Translations under genes and position numbers: made by a program
From: Bacteroidota bacterium
GTDB lineage: Bacteria > Bacteroidota > Bacteroidia > Chitinophagales > Saprospiraceae
Assembly (NCBI GenBank): GCA_020160935.1
Contig: JAIUPL010000008.1
Span: forward strand, 62,001-126,000
Direction: 5' to 3'
DNA: 64,000 nucleotides
The notes under the pieces: model-generated
Told to the model about the DNA's origin: nothing
Database searches by the model: none
The model's input: the letters and a program-made list of their open reading frames with translations, nothing else
Part shown: positions 15,622 to 61,047 of the stretch, piece after piece
Position numbering within the stretch: the first letter of the stretch is position 1
Layout: every line of letters begins with the position of its first letter

Positions 15622-15756
15622 AGAGTGAGTTATGAGTTATGAGTTATGAGTTATGAGTTAAACACACGTTGCTTATGGCCACTCTAATGAAGATGCCATA
15701 AGCAACGTGTGTTTAACTCATAACTCATAACTTATAACTCATAACTACAAACTCAC
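15622..15756. repeat. Intergenic inverted repeat 6 (GAGTTAT heptads)
   Basis: Arms of about 58 nt (15622-15679 and 15695-15756). Each has four to five tandem heptads GAGTTAT plus a unique 20-nt part (ACACGTTGCTTATGGC and complement) next to a short loop. The right arm overlaps the TGA stop codon (15753-15755) of the RMD1-like gene. It sits between two minus-strand genes. Confidence 0.88.
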
Positions 15757-25624: not shown

Positions 25625-25795
25625 AAGTCGTGAGTCCTGAGTCCTGAGTCCTAAGTCCTAAGTCCGTAGAGTACACCTGGTTACACTTGGCGTTCATTTA
25701 CAGGAATACTAAGCGCAACCATGTGTACTCTACGGACTTAGGACTTAGGACTCAGGACTCAGGACTCAGGACTTAGGACTCAGGACTCACGACTT
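25625..25795. repeat. Intergenic inverted repeat 8 (GAGTCCT heptads)
   Basis: Both arms start with AAGTCGTGAGTCC and consist of GAGTCCT/AAGTCCT heptads, five on the left and eight on the right, followed by CCGTAGAGTACAC around a unique 45-nt centre. The left arm starts at the base after the stop codon of the LuxC-like gene. The right arm supplies the TGA stop of the amidase gene (25787-25789). The unequal heptad counts suggest slippage after the arms formed. Confidence 0.92.
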
Positions 25796-35213: not shown

Positions 35214-35220
35214 GGAAAAA

Positions 35221-35434
35221 GTCCTGAGTCGTGAGTCCTAAGTCCTGAGTCGTGTTGAAATGGAGCGGGTAATGTGGTTAGTGCAAAGTTAATACAAGTA
35301 TATTAACGATGCATGATAGAGTATCCATGTGGGATAGTGCTTTGATTTTTTAAAGTGCATATTCAACTCTGCTTGAAATAGTTATTTTGACTTCAGTTCA
35401 AGGCTCATGACTTAGGACTCAGGACTTAGGACTC
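35221..35434. repeat. Inverted repeat 11 (GAGTCCT heptads, widely spaced arms)
   Basis: Short arms of about 31 nt (35221-35254 and 35404-35434) of GAGTCCT/AAGTCCT heptads, the same unit as repeat 8, with 150 bases between them. The spacer probably holds the promoter of the ABC exporter gene. The right arm lies five bases from the DUF1080 stop codon. Confidence 0.8.
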
Positions 35435-43719: not shown

Positions 43720-43982
43720 GAGGTGAGAGGGTGAGAGGGTGAGAGAGTGAGAGAGTGAGAGGGTGAGAGGGTGAGAGGGTGAGAAATTTTACGGCTCGAT
43801 GAGGGACAGATTGAACCTCATCGAGCCGTAAAATTTCTCACCCTCTCACCCTCTCACTCTCTCACCCTCTCACCCTCTCACTCTCTCACTCTCTCACCCT
43901 CTCACTCTCTCACTCTCTCACCCTCTCACCCTCTCACTCTCTCACCCTCTCACCCTCTCACCCTCTCACCCTCTCTCACCTC
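43720..43982. repeat. Inverted repeat 12 (GTGAGAGG 8-mers)
   Basis: Arms of tandem 8-mers (GTGAGAGG/GTGAGAGA) around a 24-bp unique stem and an 11-nt loop at 43805-43815. The left arm has about 85 nt (43720-43804), the right about 167 nt (43816-43982), so the right array is about twice as long. The stop codons of the convergent adhesin (TAG 43714-43716) and GLPGLI genes (43982-43984) flank it directly. Confidence 0.92.
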
Positions 43983-54081: not shown

Positions 54082-54387
54082 ATGGAGACTACCACACTGA
54101 CCCTGCTGATTTTCCTGCTCGTGCTGGCCGCTTTTCTCGGGCAGGAAATCTTTTCAAAAACGCCGGTATCGGCACAAATCTCGCTGCTGTCATCTGCGAA
54201 CGCGGTGTCGGGAATTGGCGTATTAGGGGCAGTGTTGACCGCCGGACTTGCCGAAAATGCCGGCAACAATGATCTTGCTGCCCTGCTTGGCGGAGTAGCA
54301 CTGGCACTTGCCCTCGTCAATACGGCTGCCGGATATCTGGGGGCCGGCGGCTGGCTGGATCAGTTCAGGAACAAACAGGATAAATAG
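54082..54387 (+). CDS. PntA membrane-domain (dII) homologue, stand-alone
   Basis: A 101-residue membrane protein with about three segments. It matches the membrane part of the alpha subunit of proton-translocating NAD(P) transhydrogenase: FLGQEIFSKTP and SSANAVSGIGVLGAVL correspond to the conserved region before and in the first helices, and ALVNTAAGYLGAGGWL to the last. Some bacteria split PntA into a soluble NAD-binding PntAa and this PntAb piece. Here no PntAa gene is present in the operon. It starts one base after the upstream stop and the PntB-like gene follows after one base, so the three genes are surely cotranscribed. Confidence 0.75.
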   Translation: METTTLTLLIFLLVLAAFLGQEIFSKTPVSAQISLLSSANAVSGIGVLGAVLTAGLAENAGNNDLAALLGGVALALALVNTAAGYLGAGGWLDQFRNKQDK

Positions 54388-54388
54388 C

Positions 54389-55189
54389 ATGGGCTTCAGT
54401 ACATTGATCCATATCGTATATGTGCTGTCGGCCGTTGCTTTTATCATCGGTTTTAAAATGACCCGGCAAGTCGAAACGGCTCAAAGAGGTCACCTGATTT
54501 CCGGAATTGGAATGGCCGTCGCAATACTGGTTACCTTGCTGGATCGGCATGTCGCCCGCCTCGATTATATTCTTCTGGGCCTCCTGGCTGGAACAACTGT
54601 TGGTGTGGCATTGATCAGAAAAATGCCCCAGGAAGTTTCCTTTGCTTCCATTGCTTTGTTGAACGCATTTGGCGCTGCGGCTTTGTGGCTGGTGACCTAT
54701 GCGCAGTTCCATGCGCGGCCTGCCGGGCAAGGATTCACCGGCGGGTTGGCACTTTGCGTTTCTGCTGTTGGAGGCATGGTTGCTTTTTCAGGCGCTTTGA
54801 CTGCCTGGGCGTTCCTGACAGGGCGGATAAAGACAGGCCAATTTTCCATATTCAAAAAATGGCGCCTGCTGTATCTGGGTTGTTTTGCAGTGATCACTCT
54901 CGCCGGACTGGTGTTTGCCTGGGATGTCGTTGCGCCGGAAGCAGCCCGCTATTTTGCCCTGTTCACACTCGCCGGAACTGTTCTGGGCGTGGCGCTGGTG
55001 TTGCCCGACAACCTTTCCCGACTTCCTGCCACGGTCGTTTTGTTGCACAGTTACAGTGCGGCCGCTGCATGTGCAGCCGGTTTTTTCCTCCAAAATGCAC
55101 TGATGGTTGTAGCCGGTGCACTGGTGTGTTCAGGCTGCGTGGCATTGCGACAAAATATGAACCAATCTGCCGGCAACGAATCTGCATGA
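54389..55189 (+). CDS. PntB membrane domain homologue lacking NADP domain
   Basis: A 266-residue membrane protein of about eight segments. It resembles PntB: the N terminus (IHIVYVLSAVAFIIGF, TAQRGHLISGIGMAVA) and the block VLLHSYSAAAACAAGFFLQNALMVVAGALV agree well with E. coli PntB as I remember it. Full PntB has about 460 residues; this one stops right where the NADP-binding domain III should begin. At the channel positions equivalent to E. coli His91 and Asn222 it has N92 and H220, an apparent swap, and Arg at the position of Asp213. Hence it probably cannot catalyse hydride transfer. It may be a proton channel, a sensor or a new enzyme part. Confidence 0.75.
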   Translation: MGFSTLIHIVYVLSAVAFIIGFKMTRQVETAQRGHLISGIGMAVAILVTLLDRHVARLDYILLGLLAGTTVGVALIRKMPQEVSFASIALLNAFGAAALWLVTYAQFHARPAGQGFTGGLALCVSAVGGMVAFSGALTAWAFLTGRIKTGQFSIFKKWRLLYLGCFAVITLAGLVFAWDVVAPEAARYFALFTLAGTVLGVALVLPDNLSRLPATVVLLHSYSAAAACAAGFFLQNALMVVAGALVCSGCVALRQNMNQSAGNESA

Positions 55190-60903: not shown

Positions 60904-61047
60904 TTATCAGGGGTTGATGAGGGTTGATGAAGGTTGATGAGGGTTGATTTTCAGCCGCTCAAGGTAAGGCTTGTAATTTCACATTCATCGAGTTGCTGAA
61001 TATCAACCCTCATCAACCTTTATCAACCCTCATCAACCCTCAATAAC
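60903..61047. repeat. Inverted repeat 16 (GGGTTGATGA 10-mers)
   Basis: Arms of about 50 nt (60903-60952 and 60994-61047) with tandem GGGTTGATGA units, around a 40-nt centre. The left arm begins at the last base of the mqnE stop codon. The next gene starts 18 bases after the right arm. Confidence 0.88.

Follow-up and report, generated by a model that had tools for sequence, protein, structure and literature searches.

A transhydrogenase membrane domain that outlives its enzyme in a Bacteroidota genome

Transhydrogenase is a classic example of proton pumping tied to a domain that alternates between two sites. In a review, its three-domain architecture (dI, dII and dIII) is described as conserved across species (PMC5742237). 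The locus reported in this work, a pair of adjacent genes that encode only dII (hereafter called the orphan), can be compared with three enzymes. It shares with the three-subunit transhydrogenase of Thermus thermophilus the gene order and the helices, covering PntAb and the first 254 positions of the PntB profile. However, it is devoid of the dI gene, of dIII, of the channel histidine on TM3 and of the Asp213-Arg265 pair, and its cytoplasmic loops are not conserved. With respect to E. coli PntAB (9l76), residues 5-255 of PntB align with residues 6-253 of the orphan protein, but the positions of His91 and Asn222 are occupied by Asn and His, and the membrane parts exist without the fused dI and dIII. 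The third enzyme is a second transhydrogenase of the genus, to which we have given the name type B. For instance, the type-B genes of genome G006 (L040) lie at the same locus, behind the same kind of upstream gene, but this parent enzyme possesses pntAa, a full dIII and intact GGADMP and MNRS motifs. Among the matches listed in the open-licence full-text literature, no report of a dII-only transhydrogenase product was found.

The locus and its neighbour genes

The window, that is, the whole stretch of DNA analysed (64,000 bases), corresponds to bases 62001-126000 of contig 25 of genome G000; the other G-numbers designate the genomes compared. Its positions 54082-54387 and 54389-55189, both on the + strand, encode only the dII of a proton-translocating transhydrogenase. 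The first gene product (P0001, PntAb-like, 101 aa) comprises the dII helices TM2-TM4 and matches the Pfam family PNTB_4TM (PF12769) with 46.4 bits (cut-off 26.2). The second (P0002, PntB-like, 266 aa) comprises helices TM6-TM14 and matches PNTB (PF02233) with 115.8 bits (cut-off 31.7), only over positions 2-254 of the 456 of the profile. Compared with solved chains, P0001 matches the Thermus alpha2 subunit (4o9p, E 1.1e-9) and P0002 matches E. coli PntB (9l76, E 1.2e-16). P0002 ends inside the dII-dIII linker, and dIII is absent from the protein. The Pfam and structure-chain matches thus show that both parts of dII are encoded and that dI and dIII are missing. The sequence-only reading of this DNA had proposed a dII-only pair accompanied by no gene for dI; the first proposal is borne out by these matches, and the second by tblastn, which found neither dI nor dIII at the locus of the window or at the equivalent loci of G028, G016, G031 and G037.

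The orphan genes are flanked by a gene for a 204-aa protein (P0003, 53466-54080, + strand), which lies outside the dII unit, and by a methyltransferase gene of the Methyltransf_24 family (P0004, 55186-55941, + strand), which overlaps the end of the PntB-like gene through an ATGA. The 1-base gaps and the ATGA overlap are present as previously described, and these tight junctions may indicate a single transcript. A scan of promoters and terminators gave 1 and 4 sites, respectively, versus 2.9 and 3.5 in shuffled sequences.

The label TPR-like given to P0003 belongs to the sequence-only reading alone; the best Pfam TPR match has an E value of 0.11 and falls under the cut-off. The four genes had also been regarded as a deliberate set. 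However, genes similar to P0003 are present in 40 of the 42 genomes of the genus, with or without pnt genes beside them, and P0004 looks like a neighbour: it finds matches in 8 of the 42 genomes, those of at least 65% being restricted to G000, G028, G016, G031 and G006. P0004 adjoins the dII genes directly in G000, G028 and G016, and in G031 it is separated from them by a gene on the opposite strand that is also found in G006, a type-B genome. A functional set of four genes was rejected, given that no pnt match was found in the short flanks of 21 of the 30 P0003-like loci and given the narrow occurrence of P0004. On present evidence, P0003 and P0004 would be neighbours, mostly inherited, and not partners.

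Elsewhere in the window there are five sites with long hairpins (15626-15755, 25626-25794, 35220-35434, 43722-43975 and 60911-61042), each constituted by a short tandem array with a unit of 7, 8 or 10 bp followed by the reverse-complement array. The sites at 25.6 kb and 35.2 kb share their unit, and the units of the others differ. At least two of the hairpins, those at 15.6 kb and 43.7 kb, enclose a non-repeated inner stem.

The canonical enzyme, the type-B parent and the loss of dI and dIII

PNTB matches G000 twice, at the orphan locus and on contig 1 (positions 2-454, 585 bits), and PNTB_4TM also does so twice. A 379-aa PntAa frame adjoins the pntAb/pntB pair of contig 1. G000 thus holds a complete canonical pnt operon on a contig other than that of the orphan, which answers the earlier suggestion to look for a complete pntA/pntB in the same genome. 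The orphan PntB-dII is only 31% identical to the canonical dII. The canonical operon supplies no free parts to the orphan, since a dII of its own is present there and the dIII is joined to the PntB of that operon. No free dI or dIII that could complete the enzyme was found elsewhere in G000 among the PNTB matches and three of the four AlaDh_PNT_N matches, and this possibility was discarded. The three AlaDh_PNT_N matches comprise the canonical PntAa and two proteins (C44 and C17) with an identity of 25-31% to PntAa; the fourth match is C5. No separate dIII was found in G000, where the second of the only two PNTB matches is the canonical PntB. Absence claims for G000 carry a caveat, because the assembly is 97.9% complete and a match to RNA_pol_Rpb2_6 (rpoB) was not found, likely due to an assembly gap.

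Of 100 relatives searched, 77 gave matches. Within the genus sample (42 genomes including G000), a short, dII-only PntB is present in five: G000, G028, G016, G031 and G037. Identities to the PntB-dII of the window are 82% for G028, which shares the same truncated architecture, 56% for G016 (on a contig of 3,536 bases), 45% for G031 and 41% for G037. The G037 copy carries one in-frame TAG; its assembly has a contamination of 7%, and the copy spans two contigs that share an overlap of 201 identical bases. The other four copies are open, and G037 may be losing its own. Contig C645 of G037 also bears a 48-bp unit repeated 3.8 times with a palindrome (L051 3883-4065), with matching copies on C577.

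A full-length type-B PntB is present in nine of the 42 genomes (that of G040 is interrupted by a contig end) and is 37-46% identical to the orphan, compared with about 30% for the canonical protein. The gene order P0003-like gene, pntAa, pntAb, pntB is found in eight of the nine; in the ninth, G030, the contig opens 35 residues before the end of the P0003-like gene. G006 has both the type-B and the canonical enzymes, and the other eight genomes have a single PntB-like match. Canonical pnt genes are present in all five dII-only genomes, in the case of G037 only as pntAa at a contig end. A parent of the G006 type shares 45% of PntB-dII and 56% of PntAb residues with the orphan, as well as the Tyr and Cys of TM13. 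These comparisons identify the orphan as what is left of a second transhydrogenase, with the type-B enzyme as its direct parent. The 30 P0003-like loci, inspected with flanks of about 1.5 kb that are in some cases shortened by contig ends, can be divided into five with dII-only genes behind, four with pntAa and 21 without any pnt match.

The searches for dII-only genes covered the Bacteroidota. A scan of the genome collection gave one locus, that of the G028 relative. No dII-only gene was found in 58 relatives outside the genus, in which the shortest open frame has a length of 437, nor, other than in G000 and G028, among the 26 of 398 family genomes that match at E 1e-22. In 395 Bacteroidota genomes, among the matches listed, with at most four candidates scored per genome, two PNTB matches occur only in G000 and G627; in the latter, the second match covers 40 positions of dIII. 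For G015, G018 and G034, the short or divided hits were discarded as canonical genes that are split or interrupted by a contig end. G911, a closer hit from another family, was also discarded, as it carries a full type-B set. The type-B operon of G911 (L148) is 77-79% identical to that of G006 in spite of belonging to another family of the order, and horizontal transfer is a possible origin for it.

The truncation probably occurred at least twice. In trees of the P0003-like protein and of rpoB, the dII-only G037 is placed beside the type-B G032 with high support. The dII alignment rejects a single clade of the five dII-only sequences (p-AU 0.0144), also when the cytoplasmic loops are removed (p-AU 0.0335), and the position of G037 in the dII tree has little support. 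PntB linker ends differ between G000/G028, G016, G031 and G037. Because of the trees and the rejected clade, at least two losses of dI and dIII are assumed; one single loss was discarded on the basis of the dII tree and of the different junctions. Whether G031 represents, perhaps, a third loss event is contested. This genome joins the type-B G006 in the P0003, canonical pnt, P0004 and rpoB DNA trees, and both have the opposite-strand gene between pntB and P0004, which we take to code for an M20-type amidohydrolase and which is missing in G000, G028 and G016. In the rpoB protein tree, G006 is placed instead with G016, still within the dII-only sequences (G000 has no rpoB sequence in this tree). 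On the other side, the dII tree groups G031 with the other dII-only sequences (98/96), and the p-AU values against a grouping of G006 and G031 are 0.0146 and 0.0269.

Channel residues and conserved surfaces

Three channel positions were read in the alignments. Ser43 of P0001 (TM3; 54208-54210, + strand) occupies the position of the Thermus channel His42 and is Ser in all five dII-only and all nine type-B proteins of the genus. Asn92 of P0002 (TM9; 54662-54664, + strand) corresponds to E. coli PntB His91, and His220 of P0002 (TM13; 55046-55048, + strand) to Asn222. The window proteins are therefore devoid of a channel histidine on TM3 or TM9, and a histidine is located at the TM13 position. In the cytoplasmic loop between TM12 and TM13 (55007-55027, + strand), the sequence is DNLSRLP where the type-B enzymes have IGGADMP, and Arg211 aligns with E. 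coli Asp213. The Asp213-Arg265 salt bridge (E. coli numbers) is lacking, the two positions being Arg211 and Asn263.

The printed alignment agrees with the correspondences proposed earlier (N92 with H91, H220 with N222 and R211 with D213), but the idea that His91 and Asn222 had been swapped does not stand, since in the intact type-B relatives the two positions are already Asn and only the change of Asn222 to His is new. At the TM3, TM9 and TM13 positions, 25 canonical rows (one genome is represented twice) show His/Asn/Asn and all 16 type-B sequences show Ser/Asn/Asn. G076, which was kept out of both sets, also shows Ser/Asn/Asn, as does G911, read by eye; G017 and G297 lack a PntAb in which these positions could be read. 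The TM3 histidine of the Thermus type is present in the canonical operon of G000. The swap as a re-wired channel of the E. coli type was therefore rejected, since the parent enzymes are already Ser/Asn/Asn. Among the sequences aligned, His220 is limited to G000 and G028, and for this reason it is considered a late gain and not half of a swap. Asn92, Tyr222 and Cys228 are conserved in the five dII-only proteins; the position of Ser139 is Ala in two of them, and the channel-facing residues are not strictly conserved.

According to the same review, the central histidine is conserved although its position may shift (PMC5742237). A type-B group without His at the three places does not fit this view, unless another position is used. 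The type-B genomes are G006, G032, G014, G040, G030, G011, G002, G035 and G019, as well as G090, G364, G427, G387, G163, G252, G307 and G911; the corresponding loci (L040-L048, L049, L131-L136 and L148) all have the Cys of TM13.

The borders of helices and loops were taken from hydropathy, and their sides from the known transhydrogenase topology, in which dIII is cytoplasmic. In type-B proteins (n=9) the mean pairwise identity is 0.84 for cytoplasmic loops, 0.54 for periplasmic loops and 0.77 for helices, while in dII-only proteins (n=5) it is 0.30, 0.70 and 0.58, respectively. The change in identity from type-B to dII-only proteins is not the same for cytoplasmic and periplasmic loops (permutation p 5e-5). 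Given the unequal phylogenetic depth of the two sets, a contrast drawn inside either set is safer than one between them. Some periplasmic-loop residues, for instance A109, Q114, A182 and A185, do not vary among the five dII-only and the nine type-B proteins. The eroded sites include the GGADMP motif (Asp213), the linker Arg265 (retained in G031) and the His of the TM2-3 loop (retained in G037), which two publications describe as belonging to the dII-dIII salt bridge or as required for proton activity (PMC5742237, PMC5026163). Thus, the cytoplasmic loops, which face dI and dIII in the enzyme, have been eroded, and the helices and periplasmic loops much less so. This erosion argues against any nucleotide-dependent role.

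Selection on the orphan and its possible role

Both G000 and G028 carry the truncated architecture, so their differences are taken as posterior to the truncation. The comparison comprises 266 codons of PntB-dII and 101 codons of PntAb, with no indels. It gives a dN/dS of 0.121 for PntB-dII (95% bootstrap 0.081-0.176) and of 0.087 for the orphan PntAb (95% bootstrap 0.036-0.168); for the neighbours, the values are 0.110 (methyltransferase) and 0.016 (P0003). Canonical PntB has a dN/dS of 0.016, 7.6 times lower than that of PntB-dII, and canonical PntAb shows zero nonsynonymous changes. Only this close pair was used for dN/dS, because ML and YN00 estimates are unreliable for many diverged pairs. 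In simulations of neutral mutation at distances 0.66 and 0.92, none of 2000 dII genes remained free of stops, versus 58 and 30 of 2000 PntAb genes. The usual signs of a pseudogene were not found: frames are open in G000, G028, G016 and G031, the copy of G037 with its stop being the exception, and dN/dS is 0.09-0.12 for the G000-G028 pair. The orphan PntAb and PntB-dII are under purifying selection, weaker than that acting on the canonical enzyme. The description of the locus as not decayed holds for the lineage of the window, with a dN/dS of about 0.1, and the reading of an orphan dII is borne out, in a genome that carries a complete pnt operon on another contig.

The following sequence of events is proposed. 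A second transhydrogenase would once have been present at the locus, with the order P0003-like gene, pntAa, pntAb, pntB. Lineages in which the canonical transhydrogenase was also present would have lost pntAa together with the part of pntB that encodes dIII, retaining PntAb and PntB-dII as a two-subunit membrane assembly, whose folding and pairing we infer. Without dI and dIII, the cytoplasmic face has drifted, and the alignments show the helices and the periplasmic face to be more constrained. The dII dimer could then serve a nucleotide-independent role, either as a standing slow pathway for protons or ions or as a scaffold with a periplasmic contact. In the lineage of the window, the new His220 of TM13 may act as a protonatable channel residue.

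We hold with good confidence that the orphan is a kept, working dII-only membrane protein, and a retained dII of a second transhydrogenase with a nucleotide-independent membrane role is probably the best explanation for it. Hydride transfer by the locus alone is excluded because there are neither nucleotide sites nor a conserved docking surface, and there is no longer a dIII of its own to gate it. We favour two readings of the remaining assembly, the slow proton or ion pathway and the scaffold that contacts a partner in the periplasm. A more specific version can be offered only tentatively: dII would be a module able to exist without nucleotides, would have been freed at least twice in one genus from a transhydrogenase without the channel histidine, would now be a stand-alone assembly facing the periplasm and, in the lineage of the window, would have rebuilt a proton path with the TM13 histidine. 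That the orphan dII conducts protons at all is possible, though we rather doubt it.

An alternative that we consider unlikely is that of a slowly dying remnant with no present role, in which the canonical enzyme took over and dII is the next part to go. The states found in the genus are consistent with it (type B alone in eight genomes, type B plus canonical in G006, dII-only plus canonical in five), as are the P0003-like loci without pnt match (21 of 30), the in-frame TAG of G037 and the faster evolution of the orphan PntB compared with canonical PntB. However, a dN/dS of 0.09-0.12 without indels after the truncation, four of five copies free of stops when no simulated neutral dII gene remained so, and periplasmic-loop residues identical in all five dII-only and nine type-B proteins argue against it.

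It is rather more improbable that the dII-only subunits form mixed dimers with the canonical enzyme and tune it, for instance by contributing a protomer without turnover. All five dII-only genomes hold canonical pnt genes, and eight of the nine type-B genomes have a single PntB-like match. Helix 2, the dII dimer contact according to the review (PMC5742237), has eight residues identical across the nine type-B and five dII-only proteins, although this helix is less alike among dII-only proteins (identity 0.65) than among type-B proteins (about 0.89). Against such dimers, identity to the canonical dII is low (31%) and the loops for a neighbouring dIII are eroded; moreover, a canonical copy would be expected anyway, since a cell without the old dI and dIII needs another enzyme.

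An annotation or assembly artefact, with dI and dIII concealed by a frameshift or a misjoin, is very improbable: the assemblies are drafts, G000 has gaps such as the missing rpoB, and the G016 and G037 copies lie on short or overlapping contigs, but tblastn found no dI or dIII at five loci, G028 shares the architecture, and the G000 locus, at about 116 kb of a contig of 233,799 bases, is far from the contig ends.

The orphan is a transhydrogenase part that has outlived its enzyme. Since the 16 type-B sequences are all devoid of His at the three positions, the type-B enzymes put to the test the view of proton transfer through a single membrane histidine. A natural dII that has been kept by selection without dI and dIII provides a ready object for the study of dII alone, be it a proton leak, a shut channel or a protein with another role.
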